Shown: one piece after another, positions 56,948 to 64,000 of the stretch
Position numbering within the stretch: the first letter of the stretch is position 1
How the letters are laid out: each line of letters starts with the position of its first letter
NCBI GenBank assembly: GCA_001600495.1
Contig: BCKE01000002.1
Span: 326,347 to 390,346 of the forward strand
Direction of reading: 5' to 3'
Length of the DNA stretch: 64,000 nucleotides
Source: Pilasporangium apinafurcum
Lineage: Eukaryota > Oomycota > Peronosporomycetes > Pythiales > Pythiaceae
Position numbers and translations under genes: made by a program
The notes under the pieces: model-generated
The model's input: the letters and a program-made list of their open reading frames with translations, nothing else
Told to the model about the DNA's origin: nothing
The model's database searches: none

Positions 56948-59626
56948 TCAAATGTGATTGAGTGTTGTGTCTTCGTCCGTGGACGGATTGTCCGAGGTCG
57001 TGGCAGCAATTTCCGCCGGATTTTGGATGTCATCAGTCAATTCCTTTGCACTCGTGAAGCGAGTGACTGTGCGCTTGATACCTACCGCCACCATCGCGAC
57101 CATCACGATGGCACCCACACACGCAGCCACCGCCATACCGCCCATGATCCACGGCTTTTGCATGAGTTCCTTAAGCGAGCTACTCTCCTTGTCTTTGGCG
57201 GTTGCTTGCACCTTCACCATCTTTGACGAAAGGTACTGACAAGGCTCCAAGTGTGCTGAGTTTGATGTGACCTGGAAACGGCAGAAGCGGCATGTGGGAC
57301 TGAAACAACCTACACCAACAACGTCAGCTCCACAATCGTATGTTTCTGCAGCGACACCAGCTTCGGTGTCGCCTGGAGCTACGTTCGCTTGGCATTCTTC
57401 GACATCAGTCGGAGCAAAAATGATATCCGTTGGCGCTTCTGTGGGCGCTTCTGTTGGTGCTTCCGTTGGTGCTTCCGTTGGTGCTTCCGTTGGTGCTTCT
57501 GTTGGTGCTTCCGTTGGTGCTTCTGTGGGCGCTTCTGTGGGTGCTTCTGTGGGCGCTTCTGTGGGTGGTTCCGTTATGATCTGGACAGGTGGTTGCGTCT
57601 CGGTAGCGGTGGGAGTGCTGGGAGTGCTAGGAGTGCTGGGAGTGCTGGGAGTGCTGGGAGTGCTGGGAATATACGTCACGTCCGGACAAACCACAAAGTT
57701 TGCCGACTGAGGTGTATCGGCAGTCTTGCAGAAACGACAGACGTTATCAATACAACCAACACCGCCGGAGCTGCAAGAGCTATCCGCATAGATCTGAATC
57801 CCAGCGGCTTGGTCTCCGGGAGAGGCAACCTGGCTACATACCCCTGATGTCTGGGTTGGTGGAGTAGTAGTTGTACTTGGTGCCTCTGTGGCAATAGGAG
57901 GAATCGAAGCCGGTGTTTGGGGCGCAGATGTCACAGGGGCCGTAGTGGTAGTGTAGCCATAATTATCACAGCTAACAAAGTTGGCCGATTGCGGTGTATC
58001 GCTGTGCTTGCAGAACCGGCAGATGTTGTCGATGCACCCAACGCCACCGTTGACGCAGGACGCGTCCGAGACAATTTCAATGCCGGCGGCAAGGTCGCCT
58101 TCTGAAACTACCAGACCACACTGCGTCGTAGCTGGCGTAGATAATGGCGAGGTTGTCGGTTGCTCGGTGATCACACTAGGTTCCGATGAGATAGTGGGGG
58201 TAGTAGGAGCAGCTGTTGATGATACAGGTGCTTCTGTTGGAGCGACTGGGGCTGTGGTCTCCACCACGACAGATCCATAAAGCGAGCACGAATTCAAGTG
58301 TGCAGACTGAGGAGTCGAGAACACTTGGCAAAACCGACAAATGTCACTCGCGCATCCCAACCCACCATTAACGCATGACGCGTCTGTCACCAATTGGATC
58401 CCTGCGGTTTGATCACCAGGTGAGGCAGCTGAGGTACAAGCGCGCTCAGTCACTGTCGGCGTTTCGGTTGGGCCCGTTTCATCATTAACTTCGGTTGGAT
58501 TGAACAAAGGGTCGTCAATAGTGATGGGGGTATCGGTCACAACGACGGGCGTGGTCGTAACTGTGGGAGCTGTTGTGGGAGCCGTCGTGGGAGCTGTTGT
58601 GGGAGCCGTCGTAGGAGCTGTTGTAGGAGCTGTTGTAGGAGCGTTTGTATCCACAATCACAACCACGACGGGGCTCGTACTTGTCGGTTCGGGTGCATAC
58701 GATGGGGAGAGTGTCGCCGTGGTTGGGGCGGGGGAAGACACAGTCACGTTCGAATACGCCGAGCAGTCATTCAAATGACTCGATTGTGAGGTCGTTGCGA
58801 CCTTACAGAAGCGACAATGGTCGCTGTAGCATCCGAGCCCGCCATACAGGCATGTAGGATCAGTAACTGCACTAACGCCGACGGCACTGTCGCCCGCAGA
58901 CACGGTACAGGCACTAGTGTCGTACACATGAGGAGCAGGCGTCACGTAGTTGGCACCAAAGTTTGCACATGTCTGCAGGTGCGTTGACAGCGGGGTATCG
59001 AAGTACTTGCAATGGCGGCAGTGGTCATTATAACAGCCCAGCCCACCATTGACGCATGTCGTATCCAGAACTACCTGGACACCCACGGCCTTGTCCCCTT
59101 CTGAGACACCACAATCGCCAGTGCTCGACGATGGGGCCACTGTTGGTGAGGTAGTAGTCGGTGCCACTGTCGGTGGGGCAGTTGTCGGAGCTTCGGTTGG
59201 TGGGGCAGTTGTCGGAGCTTCGGTTGGTGGGGCAGTTGTCGGAGCTTCGGTTGGGGGGGCAGTTGTCGGAGCTTCGGTTGGTGGAGCAGTTGTCGGAGCC
59301 ACAGTTACTGGAGTAGGAGCTGAAGTTGGCTCAATTATTTCCGAGGGTGTAAATATATTGTTGCATTCATTCAAATGCTTGGACTGAGGTGTATCTCTCA
59401 CTTTACAGAAACGACAAATAGTATCGATACAACCGAGACCACCGTTTATACATTCGGCCCACGTTTCGATCTCAACACCGACAGCCTTGTCACCATCAGA
59501 CGCAGTTTGGGTGCATTCCGTTGCAACGCCCGCTACTAATGAGGCACTCTGCAACAAACAGAGGTTCACGGCGCAGATCGCTGCAACGACCTTGGCCAAG
59601 GACCGATATGTTTGAGAAAATACCAT
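56948..59626 (-). CDS. Cysteine-module surface protein 3 (seven modules, TM anchor)
   Basis: Largest member, 892 residues. The ATG at 59626-59624 gives a good signal peptide (VVAAICAVNLCLLQSASLVAG); the frame is open further upstream without an earlier ATG. Seven six-cysteine modules, with cores such as GDKAVGVEIET, GGLGCIDTICRFCK and DTPQSKHLNEC, are spaced by low-complexity mucin-like blocks: TEAPTTAPP repeats, PTTA repeats, STP repeats and EAPT repeats. After the last module (GVGCFSPTCRFCR) come a charged stalk, a transmembrane helix (GGMAVAACVGAIVMVAMVAVG) and a basic-then-acidic cytosolic tail. The EAPT/TTAP repeats recall oomycete CAR mucins of germinating cysts. Cell-surface coat or adhesion is the likely role, by inference. 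Confidence 0.75.
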   Translation of the reverse strand: MVFSQTYRSLAKVVAAICAVNLCLLQSASLVAGVATECTQTASDGDKAVGVEIETWAECINGGLGCIDTICRFCKVRDTPQSKHLNECNNIFTPSEIIEPTSAPTPVTVAPTTAPPTEAPTTAPPTEAPTTAPPTEAPTTAPPTEAPTTAPPTVAPTTTSPTVAPSSSTGDCGVSEGDKAVGVQVVLDTTCVNGGLGCYNDHCRHCKYFDTPLSTHLQTCANFGANYVTPAPHVYDTSACTVSAGDSAVGVSAVTDPTCLYGGLGCYSDHCRFCKVATTSQSSHLNDCSAYSNVTVSSPAPTTATLSPSYAPEPTSTSPVVVVIVDTNAPTTAPTTAPTTAPTTAPTTAPTTAPTVTTTPVVVTDTPITIDDPLFNPTEVNDETGPTETPTVTERACTSAASPGDQTAGIQLVTDASCVNGGLGCASDICRFCQVFSTPQSAHLNSCSLYGSVVVETTAPVAPTEAPVSSTAAPTTPTISSEPSVITEQPTTSPLSTPATTQCGLVVSEGDLAAGIEIVSDASCVNGGVGCIDNICRFCKHSDTPQSANFVSCDNYGYTTTTAPVTSAPQTPASIPPIATEAPSTTTTPPTQTSGVCSQVASPGDQAAGIQIYADSSCSSGGVGCIDNVCRFCKTADTPQSANFVVCPDVTYIPSTPSTPSTPSTPSTPSTPTATETQPPVQIITEPPTEAPTEAPTEAPTEAPTEAPTEAPTEAPTEAPTEAPTEAPTEAPTDIIFAPTDVEECQANVAPGDTEAGVAAETYDCGADVVGVGCFSPTCRFCRFQVTSNSAHLEPCQYLSSKMVKVQATAKDKESSSLKELMQKPWIMGGMAVAACVGAIVMVAMVAVGIKRTVTRFTSAKELTDDIQNPAEIAATTSDNPSTDEDTTLNHI
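57430..57570 (-). repeat. 12-bp tandem repeat coding EAPT
   Basis: About eleven units of GGTGCTTCYGTT on the plus strand, encoding Glu-Ala-Pro-Thr in paralogue 3. It is the longest pure repeat in the gene. Confidence 0.85.
57605..57668 (-). repeat. 9-bp tandem repeat coding Ser-Thr-Pro
   Basis: About seven units of GGAGTGCTG on the plus strand, encoding STP in paralogue 3. Confidence 0.85.
58560..58650 (-). repeat. 12-bp tandem repeat coding Pro-Thr-Thr-Ala
   Basis: About seven units of GGAGCTGTTGTR/GGAGCCGTCGTR on the plus strand, encoding PTTA repeats in paralogue 3. Confidence 0.8.
59150..59310 (-). repeat. 27-bp tandem repeat coding TEAPTTAPP
   Basis: About five units of GGTGGGGCAGTTGTCGGAGC with a variable 7-base end, encoding nonapeptides TEAPTTAPP in paralogue 3. 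Confidence 0.8.
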
Positions 59627-61095
59627 GTCCGTTGCGAGTCTTTTTCTTGGTCTTTTGCTCACGGGCAGAGGAAATGCTGCTTGGAATGTGTGAGAAGAAC
59701 ACAGCTAAAAGACGAATGAATGGTTTGTAGCCGCTGTCGGCAAACAAGGCAGGCGTCGTCTCGGCCAGAAGCAAGCTCAAACGGGCGCGTTCGTTTTAAA
59801 AGACTATCTAGCCGTTGAGAACCCCTTGGCGAGTCTGGGCCGCATATGAGGCGACCTTCCATGATCCTGTGTGCGAATGGTTTCGGCTTTCAATCCTTCT
59901 TTTGGTCCAATATCTGCCCCAATATCAGTCCGGATCATATGTCAATTCATTACTGTAGAAGTACAAACAGTGAAATCTATAGAAGTAACTTCGCATCATC
60001 CCATAGAAAGGTGTGGATAAAGGAAATTTTGGTGAAACGGATAGAAAACAAACGCAGGCTGGACTGTGTGGAGTCAATCTAAACCCGTATCAGTCTAGTA
60101 CTGTCCTCCTGCCTATTATGTTGCGAGGTCAAATCGTACATTCTCAATCTCTCGGGATTGTAGTCATTGTAGTTATTCTCTTTCTCAAGGGAACTGATTC
60201 CTTCCATAGGCCGCTTGGCATAGACTGTCCAACTTGATTCTTGTTTGCCTTTTATTGCTTCTAGCATCCAGCGTACCAAACGCAATCCTGACAGGGGTGT
60301 GGGTTTCATCAGCTGAATCGAGAGCCATTTGCGCATCCATTATCGGAAACACTGATTATTGATAACGGTCCATTCCTCGTCAGTCGTTACTGCAAACCCA
60401 CGAACGGTCAAAGAGTCGCGGATTTGTGCGACCAACAGCGAATTCTCTACCCTAGATGCTCATTATCGTCATATCTTTGCTCATGTCTATGATCTTGTAT
60501 TTGAAAACCATGTTCCAAGCCAAAAACGGACATTTGCAAGTATGTCGGACAGTCTAGCCAATTCTGGTAATTACTGTGGATGTACTTTTACCTTTTTTTT
60601 CAAGTGTACTAGTGGAAGTGTAGTCGTACTATATGAAGTGCATCTCTTTTACAGTGTAAGTTAGTTTCTACTGGATTTAGCAACGATCACTCCACTTGGC
60701 ATAAAAGAGTAGATTCTGAGGATTCTTCCGCTATTTCATTCTCTGCAGGACGACAAATAGTTCTGACGATATTCACGTGTGGAGATTGTAAGGTAGGTAG
60801 GCAATTGGAAAGTGATCGCGTTTCTGGTTTGAACTACCTACTGATAATCCATTTGTAAACAGCTATGTATTCTTATTGCTAAGCATTCCTTCTACCAACT
60901 TAATTTGATGGTCCAGAGGTCTCTATCTTTTTTTGAACCGTTAATAGTGTTCTGACCAAATGTGCACTTCTGGAACCTGCCTTCTCGCACTATGCTTGCA
61001 ACTTTCGTTCACAACAGTGACTATTTTGAAAAGCACCAAGGCAAGATAATCAAGAGTGTTGTTTTACTGCTGGTCTGCGCAAGCATCCAAACTTA
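59627..61095. other. Intergenic region upstream of Fanzor
   Basis: About 1.47 kb between the start of surface gene 3 and the Fanzor coding region. Open frames at 60079-60336 (minus) and 60359-60664 (plus) show no domain I recognise. The promoter of surface gene 3 and the 5' part or upstream exons of the Fanzor element should lie here. Confidence 0.35.
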
Positions 61096-62358
61096 GGATA
61101 GCTTATCCAATCTGATCCCTGCGTACTCCAGGTTCAAGAAGTATCCCATCCATACTGAGAAGATTGTTTGGATGCAGGAATTATCGGATAGAGTAAGAAA
61201 CGAGATCGAACTGCCGCCATCCAAGTTGAAGAGTTCTCCGGAATGCTACATATCCTTTCTTCACACATTGTTGATAGACATACAAGCTCACGTAGATGAT
61301 AGAATGAATGATTGCCGAGTCTGGTCTTTGCTTTCACAGAAACAGTTCAGACCCATTTTTATTAAGATCAACACCACCGTCCTGAAGGAACTTGCTAAGG
61401 CTTTGGATGATCCTGTTGAGCTTTACGCTGACAAAGCTGAATTATGGTGCACGTGCTTCAATACAGGTCTTGTGACCAAAGTCCAGCGAAAGGAGTTTGA
61501 GCACTTCATTTCGACCGACGGTATGTCAGTTTGACAATCTCCCGTCCAAAGCTTCTCGCGAGAGAGCAAAAAGAGACATTTTCTCTTGAAGACTGGATCT
61601 TTGGTTTAGACCCGGAAAGAAAGAAGATCTTCACTGCTGTCGTCTACAAAGAGGAAAGCATGGCTACGCTGCAAAAACCGAAAGGAGAGAACGTCAAACA
61701 TGAAGTCATCCACTGGTCGAAGGGTCGTTTCTACAGAGAGTGCGGCTACCATAGACGAACAAAGTTGACCAAAGAGTGGATTGGTGCTGAGCCTGACATC
61801 AAAACCTTCAATGAAAGCGTTCCTTCGACAAAAGTTGCGAACCTTGTCTCCTATTTGAAACGGGTGAGATTTTGTCTCGTGTATTTGGATTGTCTTTTTG
61901 GCGTATATTCATCAACGAGGATGAAGAGGCTACGATGGTCGACCTACATCCGTCGACAACAGACGTACGAGAAGGTAGTCAAGAACCTTACAGGTGGTAA
62001 TAAACGAACTGTTATCGCGTATGGAGATGCAAGTTTCACAAGCTCAGCTAAAGGCAACGTTAATGTTCCCACAACGACCCTAGAGAAGAAAGTTGGTTCC
62101 AGGTGTCGTGTTGTTGATGTGAACGAGTTCAGGATGAACAAACTGTGTTGTGCTTGTCATAAGAGGATGAAGGGGTTCGTCCTTGACAGAAAAGTTGTCA
62201 GTGACGGTCTTTATGGTGTGCGACACTGCAAAAATAGTGAATGCCATCGCACATTGTGGGACCGTGACATCAACGCCGCAATAAATATTTTGAGACTATT
62301 CATCGATCAAGTGAAGAAAAAGAAGAGACTTGAGGCGTTCACAAGGGGTAAAGGATGA
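61096..62358 (+). pseudogene. Fanzor (eukaryotic TnpB-like RNA-guided nuclease homologue), nearly complete, one frameshift
   Basis: Two overlapping frames make one protein of about 420 residues. Frame one runs from about 61096 (just after a TTAG that could be a splice acceptor; first ATG 61172) to a TGA at 61532. It includes FRPIFIKINTTVLKELAKAL, WCTCFNTG and HFISTDGMSV, matching the Fanzor segment before RuvC I. Frame two continues through ISRPKLLAREQK, RuvC I as FGLDPERKKIF, an IAYGDASFTSSAKGN block with PTTTL typical of one Fanzor group, and a zinc ribbon (LCCACHKRM, HCKNSEC). RuvC III is intact as WDRDINAAINIL. A missing base near 61529-61531 would restore collinearity. Whether this is decay, an assembly error or frameshifting is open. 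It is a different subgroup from the six degraded copies. Confidence 0.8.
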
Positions 62359-63394
62359 ATTGGTACTCGAAATCAAAAACTGAGATGATAAATATCCTCA
62401 CTGCTATGATTCCGGAAATGGATAAGTGTGATCTTTATTCTCCATGTGTTCTCTACCACGCGTGACACAGGACACATGGGGAATAAAGACTTAGTACAAA
62501 ATGATGAACCTTAATCAAAATGGGATGATGCAGATGTGATCTCGTCACGATTATCAATACAAAGGTTTGGCATGTGTATATGTTCAAGGCAGCACGGTTG
62601 GTTGCGTTTGTCGTTAATAATCTATGGGCACCGAGAATGTCACCCTTATCCACAAAAATATATAGTTTTGAATTCAACTGCTGAACGACAAATTTGTTTT
62701 CGTCTTCGGACCCAAAGGTTCATCCTCAACAACATCGCTGAGATTCTTGATATCTGCAAACACCTGACGTACATTAGATGACCTCAAACAATGTATTCAC
62801 AAACACTCGCAATTTAGCGAATTTGGTCTTCCGTAACGGGCCAGCAAGCATACGGTAGCATTCGACCATTCTCCAATCTACCGCTACGGAAAGCACAATG
62901 CCGTCACGCGAAGCAAAGTGTACGGACCCGCCAGACAAGAAGAAGATCCTCAGATTTTTGTAGAGCTAGAACATAGGATAAAAAATAAGTGTCGCTTTAG
63001 TGCCATAGGTTGCTAGGCGATAGCTGGACTCCATTGGAGTCTCCAGTATTATTACCTAAGGAGACATTTTCGTTGCGCTTGGTAATAATAATCTATGGAG
63101 TGGGTTCAAGTTAAAGTTGTATGGTAAACTACCTAGAGTTGAAGGTTAAACGTCTGCTATACACAGATGTAACTAGTCCGCAATATACGAGATAAACAAT
63201 TCCATGCACTTGTATTTGTAGACTAGAAGCATCTGTTAATGTTGTGAGCAAACCACGGTCAACTAGCTCGTAAAACACAGTTCATCAATGACTCGACTTC
63301 ATTGTTCAATTGAATAGAAAGATGATTTGATGCAAACACACAGATTTGTATTGGTTCTGGCACCCCCAGGCGATATGTGTCAGTCATCGAGGGT
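62359..63394. other. 3' flank of Fanzor and intergenic region
   Basis: No gene seen. Two small inverted repeats occur: GACTCCA-T-TGGAGTC at 63027-63041, and TATTATTACC (63047-63056) with GGTAATAATA (63081-63090). A guide RNA and the right end of the Fanzor element would be expected just after 62358, but the tail of the other family is not present. Confidence 0.4.
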
Positions 63395-64000
63395 TTATAC
63401 TTCAGCCATCATGACAGAGTCACACGGAGTAACATCAGTAAATCTTGGGCCAGTGGAATCAGGCATATCTAGGACTTCAATCACTTGCTTTCCTTCTTCA
63501 TCTGCAGCAGCTGTTATGGCGGCTGCACCAGCAACTGCAGTATCGACCAGTTCCAGAGACGCAGACTCACCATTAGAAACGAGCCGATTCGCTACACGCT
63601 TCACAGCAATAGCTATCATCGCAACAATCGCCACAGCGCCAATAGATGCAGCGACAATAAAAGCCACCGTGAAGGTTGAGTTCTCAAACTGTGATTGAAA
63701 GCCCGTACTGGAACTTTGCACACGCATCACAGTCGCACCATCATCTTGGACGTCCTGGGTGCTAAACAAAGGTACTTCGGAATCCACATCAGCAGTACTG
63801 AATATGGGGTCTTCAGGAGCAGTAGTGACGGCACTTCCGTCGGTTGCAGGTGCATAAGCAGGAGCAGCCGTCTCGGCAACTGGCGCTTCCGTCTCAGTAG
63901 CAGGCGCAGGTGCATATGTCACAATCGCAGGGGCTTCAGTCTCAGCAGGAGCTGGGGCATAGGTGTCATACGCTGGGGCTTCTGTGTTATAGACAGGTGC
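63395..64000 (-). CDS. Mucin-like surface protein 4, C-terminal part
   Basis: Open frame running off the right edge, at least 201 residues. The visible part is a Thr/Ala/Pro/Glu repeat region (TYAPAPA, ETEAPA, AYDTYAPAPA), an acidic stalk, a transmembrane helix near 63600-63665 (FTVAFIVAASIGAVAIVAMI) followed by AVKRVANRL, and a cytosolic tail of about 65 residues. The helix-plus-KRxxxR junction matches those of paralogues 1 and 3, so it is grouped with them, although no cysteine module is seen in the part present. The TYAP-type repeat is the closest in this window to oomycete CAR proteins. The N-terminal part and any modules lie beyond 64000. Confidence 0.7.
   Translation of the reverse strand, partial: APVYNTEAPAYDTYAPAPAETEAPAIVTYAPAPATETEAPVAETAAPAYAPATDGSAVTTAPEDPIFSTADVDSEVPLFSTQDVQDDGATVMRVQSSSTGFQSQFENSTFTVAFIVAASIGAVAIVAMIAIAVKRVANRLVSNGESASLELVDTAVAGAAAITAAADEEGKQVIEVLDMPDSTGPRFTDVTPCDSVMMAEV

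Follow-up and report, generated by a model that had tools for sequence, protein, structure and literature searches.

A Fanzor1-type gene of Pilasporangium apinafurcum in a probable relic of a high-copy DNA transposon

INTRODUCTION

Fanzor proteins are CRISPR-like, RNA-guided cutters of DNA. Fanzor1-only transposons have been known since 2013, and families of them are described from several stramenopiles (PMC3627910). In the published accounts of Spizellomyces punctatus SPu-1 and its nuclease SpuFz1 (PMC3627910, PMC10432273; PDB accession number 8gkh), the element is approximately 2.1 kb long and has a single Fanzor1 frame of 633 amino acids, terminal inverted repeats (TIRs), no transposase, and many copies, nine of them with intact open reading frames. 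Two conserved bases, CA, precede its left repeat beside a putative TA target-site duplication (TSD), which gives the TAM CATA, and SPu-1 ghosts without the gene are described as carrying the identical CA flank; the TAM of GtFz1 is given as TTAAN (PMC10432273, PMC3627910). PUl-4 and related elements of Pythium ultimum are described as Fanzor1-only, with Mariner-type TIRs and TA TSDs, and the Fanzor1 elements of insect viruses as having TTAN duplications, 13-bp TIRs, and an unknown superfamily (PMC3627910). For the SfAV Fanzor, the TIR and TSD are proposed to form part of the guide RNA scaffold (PMC10711439).

Similar to SPu-1 as described, the element presented in this study has TIRs, many copies, no recognised transposase, two conserved bases ahead of the left repeat beside the target duplication, and, in its longer form, a single Fanzor1 frame of comparable length (approximately 640 codons in type A). 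It also has the shifted RuvC-II glutamate of SpuFz1, which is its best match among solved structures. Unlike SPu-1, it occurs in two 5' versions (2.5 and 1.9 kb), appears to duplicate TAN instead of TA, has TT instead of CA on the left flank, and has a palindromic right end and, in type A, a palindromic left end as well; none of the copies scored is full-length and intact. The PUl-4 group resembles it by description in being Fanzor1-only with TIRs and a TA-based duplication, which is TAN here. The insect-virus elements share the TTAN-like site, the short TIRs, and the lack of a transposase; however, only TAN looks duplicated here, and the host is a cellular genome rather than a virus. The family is of the Fanzor1-only kind already known and may be one of the stramenopile families of PMC3627910; no account of such a family was found beyond that report in the oomycete and eukaryotic Fanzor/TnpB literature, as judged mainly from its listings. 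Judging from sequence comparison, the feature in the window is very probably the decayed remnant of a DNA transposon present in many copies, in which a gene for a Fanzor1-type RNA-guided nuclease is the only one recognised. Because the family is so large, its sequences by themselves are informative about target preference, selection, and recombination.

RESULTS AND DISCUSSION

Overall organization of the locus

The window, i.e., the whole 64,000-nucleotide stretch analysed, comprises positions 326,347 to 390,346 of contig C2 in a genome of 36.5 Mb and 136 contigs. The surroundings of the element are ordinary nuclear sequence with genes for adaptin, MutS, a lariat debranching enzyme, an importin-like protein, and others. 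The transposon copy lies on the plus strand at approximately 60591 to 62490 (approximately 1.9 kb), from the left TIR CCTTTTTTTTC to the right palindrome, with boundaries taken from sister copies. It is preceded by TTTTA (60586 to 60590), in which the target motif and the left-hand TA(N) of the duplication are recognised by alignment with the left ends of other copies (54 of 58 rows clean); the third base of the duplication is hard to read in the window copy. The 5' module (60591 to 61007), of the kind designated type B below, ends at the junction with the core that is common to both types. A frame in phase with ORF1 starts at the ATG at 60992 and is closed by an in-frame TAG at 61094 to 61096. 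Two overlapping frames follow, as described in the first-pass annotation: ORF1 (61172 to 61534, 120 amino acids) constitutes the N-terminal side of the Fanzor, and ORF2 (61531 to 62358, 275 amino acids) constitutes the RuvC and zinc-ribbon half. A 58-bp palindrome (62432 to 62489), which is predicted to be the 3' part of a guide RNA scaffold as well as the transposon end, completes the element.

Two proteins encoded on the minus strand flank the element (56948 to 59662 and 63395 to 64000). Both have threonine/proline/alanine-rich repeats and membrane-like C-termini, and the former also has repeated cysteine-rich units; neither has a Pfam match.

Fanzor identity and signature motifs

The first-pass annotation identified the joined frames as Fanzor/TnpB-like and proposed a profile search as a check. 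That search was run with ORF1 and ORF2 as separate queries, as they were throughout, and it supports the assignment at scores below the curated cut-offs. ORF2 matches PF07282 (E = 4.7e-5, 23.9 bits, curated cut-off 26.3), NCBIfam guided_TnpB NF040570 (E = 3.4e-6, 26.6 bits, far under the cut-off of 100), and the PHROG 506 transposase (E = 3.3e-5). Against solved structures, ORF2 itself finds SpuFz1 at E = 0.059, a profile built from 14 pieces finds it at E = 1.3e-4, and the 427-amino-acid open frame of sister copy L035 finds it at E = 1.4e-6. ORF1 alone has no Pfam match. Taken with at least 141 matches in the same genome, these profile matches indicate from the sequence that the Fanzor resemblance of the window frames is not due to chance. 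A single-sequence AlphaFold prediction of ORF2 has a pLDDT of 32.

All four motifs named in the first-pass annotation were found in the window, i.e., GLDPERKK (RuvC-I), IAYGDASF, the zinc ribbon (CCAC...CKNSEC), and WDRDINA (RuvC-III). The RuvC-I aspartate, read from the sequence, is encoded at 61609 to 61611, the RuvC-III DRD at 62260 to 62268, and the four-cysteine zinc ribbon at 62146 to 62244, with cysteine codons at 62146, 62155, 62227, and 62242. An alternative RuvC-II glutamate (62125 to 62127) lies in the pattern ExxxxxxCxxC, six residues ahead of the first zinc-ribbon cysteine, and aligns with the glutamate of DEYKTSSVC in SpuFz1. Motifs were counted over 30 rows (L021 to L050, the window copy being L031), which are the 30 top-ranking ones among the 141 matches and the sample meant by "30 rows" below. 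The RuvC-I aspartate is conserved in all 30, and the shifted glutamate is present in the window copy and in 28 of the rows. DPG together with the shifted glutamate is reported to separate Fanzors from TnpBs (PMC10711439). The window copy has DPE where 18 of 30 rows have DPG, so that the family majority agrees with that distinction and the window copy does not. Of the [TS][TS]xx-zinc ribbon-RD motif (PMC3627910), the ribbon and RD are present in the window; the TS pair, conserved in 23 of 30 rows, is replaced by MN.

The N-terminal WED/REC region is missing from the window copy, which is of type B. The N-terminal part present in type A copies is a putative WED/REC region, as it has no Pfam or NCBIfam match.

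Copies in the genome and two types of 5' end

A protein search of the same genome gave at least 141 dispersed matches; this number comes from the best 140 of 559 candidates and is thus a lower bound, and some copies are split into two matches. With more than 100 related copies in the genome, the window gene is a further instance of something already known, not a single live gene. The mean pairwise identity is 0.88 in the 30 rows, two partly misaligned rows included, and copies differ from the majority sequence by 5.5% on average (27 rows).

The unit common to the aligned copies corresponds to 61008 to 62488 of the window and is preceded by one of two differing 5' parts. Type A copies (approximately 2.5 kb) have a 5' part that extends approximately 1,030 bp beyond the common unit and encodes approximately 180 extra N-terminal residues. 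Type B copies, which include the window copy, are approximately 1.9 kb long, start at the position equivalent to approximately 60591, and have only the short upstream frame from the ATG at 60992. Each 5' part is matched at 40 or more places in the genome, the left module of the window (60586 to 60980) among them at at least 40, and no DNA similarity was found between the type B 5' module (60591 to 61007) and that of type A. Type A copies gave no usable profile by position, as their 5' ends were misaligned.

The aligned type B copies meet the core at approximately one point, equivalent to 61008 in the window; the type B 5' end may therefore have arisen once. Type B-like 5' sequence also occurs further upstream in L050 and, partly, in L030. 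Despite the common junction, a type A and a type B copy can share an identical core.

In a search with the N-terminal region, 47 of 118 rows (our own count, best 115 of 301 candidates) stop near query residue 232. In five of these 47, on contigs C35, C10, C4, C47, and C89, a zinc-ribbon match follows directly after that residue; others, e.g., on C28, do not have this internal-deletion form. The internal-deletion copies, at least five in number, thus join the N-terminal region to the zinc-ribbon end, an arrangement reminiscent of ghost elements.

Lesions in the window copy

By its sequence, the window copy is a broken relic that has been damaged at least twice. The in-frame TAG at 61094 to 61096 ends the frame from 60992, after which the frame is open again from 61097, and a frame break follows near 61530. 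At the latter position, 23 of the 30 rows keep a continuous frame, 5 are broken (the window copy, L032, L033, L048, and L050), and 2 are unscored.

The first-pass annotation described a nearly complete gene with a single frameshift at 61529 to 61534, suggesting either a recently active element or an assembly error. These points are not supported by comparison with the sister copies. The approximately 180 N-terminal residues of type A copies are missing from the window, the TAG is a second lesion, and an assembly error is unlikely because the same break is found at the L032 locus, which has different flanks. Recent activity is not supported, given the divergence of 5.5% from the majority and the finding that no scored copy (best 140 of 559 and best 115 of 301 candidates) is stop-free and full-length in both halves. 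The view that the window holds a single, nearly intact, recently active Fanzor gene with an assembly-derived break would fit the catalytic half, which is mostly open and conserved, the 23 rows that are continuous at the break, and the type B frame that is open in two other type B copies. This view is nevertheless very improbable in light of the identical break at the second locus, the extra in-frame stop, the lack of the N-terminal region in type B, and the differing signature residues.

The annotation further suggested a spliced N-terminus, since coding character extended back to a TTAG. The ORF1 frame is indeed open from 61097; on the other hand, the TTAG is an in-frame stop and not an exon edge. 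If the break or the TTAG were an intron edge, GTATGT at 61521 could be a donor site, which it resembles. However, the 23 continuous rows run on through the break in a single open frame and show no inserted intron, the type A frame of approximately 640 codons, which is interrupted at differing places, spans both sites, and so do single type B frames of 475 codons (L121, 478 to 1902) and 493 codons (L122, 465 to 1943). A spliced gene is accordingly extremely improbable.

Stops in the sister copies with no intact relative in the genome had been named as evidence that would count against a Fanzor gene. Only half of this was found, because L121 and L122 keep the shorter type B frame uninterrupted, together with the shifted glutamate and the zinc ribbon. 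No copy with full-length, stop-free matches in both halves was found among the best 140 of 559 and the best 115 of 301 candidates. Full stop-free N-terminal matches occur in five copies (C8, C37, C27 twice, and C18; best 115 of 301), whose C-terminal matches contain stops or are partial only. At least one internal-deletion copy, that on C4, is stop-free in both of its parts, and 15 of the first 30 rows of the genome protein search have no stop within the matched span. RuvC-III in L121 and L122 is DHD, not DRD.

Element ends and target site

The left ends read TTTAN|CCTTTATTCCCC in type A and TTTAN|CCTTTTTTCCCC in type B, and the right ends read GGGGAATAAAGG[T/C]|TAN. End pairs were read by eye; the window copy, L037, and L025, which would give TAT at either end, were excluded because they could not be read easily. 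The third TSD base is the same on both sides in 25 of the 28 copies with both ends readable and disagrees in L028 and in copies on C77 and C47; four of the agreeing copies have a base other than A (C, T, G, and G; permutation p = 1.6e-4). On the left, T precedes TAN in 53 of the 54 clean rows, but on the right this base is mixed (T in 24, C in 13, and G in 1 of 38 rows), and for this reason TAN is taken to be the duplicated unit. One base further out, beyond TTA, the left flank has T in 44 of the 54 clean rows (four mis-anchored rows of 58 dropped), whereas the mirrored A is found on the right in 17 of 40 rows, or in 16 of 38 after two mis-anchored rows are dropped (44/54 versus 17/40, Fisher p = 1.6e-4). 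By these sequence counts, the TSD looks like a 3-bp TAN, with an asymmetric TTTAN left flank.

This asymmetric flank resembles the arrangement in SPu-1, and TTTAN is therefore a testable TAM prediction for the nuclease. It is possible that transposase preference alone produced the TTTAN flank. In the proposed mechanism, the Fanzor would bind an RNA from the right end that consists of the 3' palindrome, TAN, and the first flank bases, and the complex would cut empty sites with TTTAN and a matching flank, which would favour re-copying of the element.

The right-end palindrome

In 24 aligned copies, 89.9% of the cells in the full palindrome pair, compared with 41 to 56% when the partners are slid; copies with deletions inside the palindrome are left out of these counts. 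Two-sided changes occur in 16 cells versus 10.5 in shuffles (6 of 500 shuffles reach 16), and the number of pairs having a two-sided change shows no excess over shuffles (147 of 500). The right end of the window copy folds better than its shuffles (z = -2.7), and the type A left end is likewise palindromic. The palindrome fits a guide RNA scaffold and fits a DNA palindrome at a transposon end equally well. The covariation is modest against shuffles and could come from symmetry at the DNA level. A guide RNA at the right end is a candidate suggested by the structure prediction and the covariation of the palindrome. An Rfam search gave five matches, all below the gathering threshold.

Selection on the two halves

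Substitutions were counted in 27 of the best 30 rows (L032, L022, and L024 dropped); as these rows are the best protein matches, the counts may favour conserved copies. In ORF2, singletons have an N:S ratio of 151:62 with 8 stops (omega 1.04), and variants in three or more rows have a ratio of 77:62 with 1 stop (omega 0.57; Fisher p = 0.004 for the contrast). Those shared by just two rows (64:18, 3 stops) lie off a smooth trend. In ORF1, the corresponding ratios are 66:33 and 52:22 (p = 0.63), with omega values of 0.84 for singletons and 1.25 for shared variants, i.e., no purifying selection. The simplest reading of these counts is that function was selected while the element spread and that neutral decay followed. 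The catalytic half would then have been under selection during the spread of an element in which no transposase is recognised.

Purifying selection on the shared ORF2 variants would also be expected of a host gene domesticated from a Fanzor. The high copy number, the dispersed insertions with target duplications, the neutral singletons, and the lesions of the window copy do not agree with domestication, which is already contradicted for the window copy and has hardly any probability.

Twin copy and near-identical pairs

The segment 61008 to 62488 of the window is identical over all 1,481 bp to L032, an inverted copy at a distance of approximately 15 kb on contig C2. L032 has a type A 5' part and other flanks, its TTAC flanks match on both sides, and the identity begins where the two types become homologous. 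Other near-identical pairs were chosen by equal search scores and are examples, not a survey. These are inverted pairs, each on one contig and 11 to 26 kb apart, on C7 (L114/L115; 1,803 bp, 99.9%), on C28 (a type B and a type A copy from the set L116/L117/L118; 1,373 bp, 99.7%), and on C22 (L119/L120; 1,508 bp, 99.0%). The remaining copy on C28 has identities of 97.2% (direct) and 99.0% (inverted) with these two. The 5' types differ within the C2 (L031/L032) and C28 pairs, and the sequences beyond the left ends differ in the C7 pair. Beyond the aligned pairs, equal scores were also seen for an inverted pair on C50, a tandem direct pair on C2 (938 to 940 kb), and a copy on C10 with one on C78.

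Gene conversion is the likeliest explanation of the A/B pairs on these sequence patterns, and the window copy would most simply share its core with the nearby inverted copy through ectopic gene conversion. The core could also equal its inverted neighbour through a recent duplication or an assembly artefact, and the inverted, same-contig arrangement of the other chosen pairs agrees with this. The explanation is nevertheless unlikely, given the differing flanks and 5' modules, the point at which identity starts, and the matching TTAC flanks on both sides of L032.

Between shared variants, r2 drops from 0.146 at distances below 25 bp to 0.043 at distances above 75 bp; 30 no-recombination tree simulations likewise gave a low background r2 of 0.063, with a four-gamete fraction of 0.69 against 0.79 in the copies. 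The sole feature that stands out is the excess of linkage below 25 bp, for which multi-base mutations could account, and linkage was dropped as proof of mosaicism. A repeat outside the Fanzor family, intended as a control, had too few copies (10 matches).

A joint reading of the above ectopic gene conversion and the end structures is offered tentatively. TTTAN would be the TAM of the nuclease as recorded in insertion sites, and TAN and the 58-bp palindrome would be part of the guide RNA. The cores of nearby inverted A and B copies would have been rewritten by ectopic gene conversion, possibly after the machinery of the element had itself introduced breaks, and the short type B, which is still open in at least two copies, would itself be mobile and perhaps protein-making. 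Taken as a whole, this reading is possible rather than probable.

Transposase partner

While alive, the element would have been moved by a transposase that was encoded elsewhere and recognised the terminal repeats. No transposase frame was recognised between the ends of the aligned copies. Genome profile searches gave 6 matches to PF13359, 59 to PF13358 (DDE_3), and 3 to PF13843, and there were none to PF01797 (Y1 transposase of the IS200/IS605 type) at E = 0.001.

Three loci with a DDE_3 match and an end of the family nearby, out of the 59 DDE_3 matches, were considered and rejected as partners that carry the family ends. The end at L111 belongs to a Fanzor copy beside the DDE_3 gene, that at L112 belongs to a type A copy, whose left end it forms, and the DDE_3 gene at L113 lies between inverted repeats of its own. 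At L111 (2501 to 3001, contig C34), the reversed Fanzor copy adjoins an open frame of 333 codons of the Tc1/mariner type (DDE_3).
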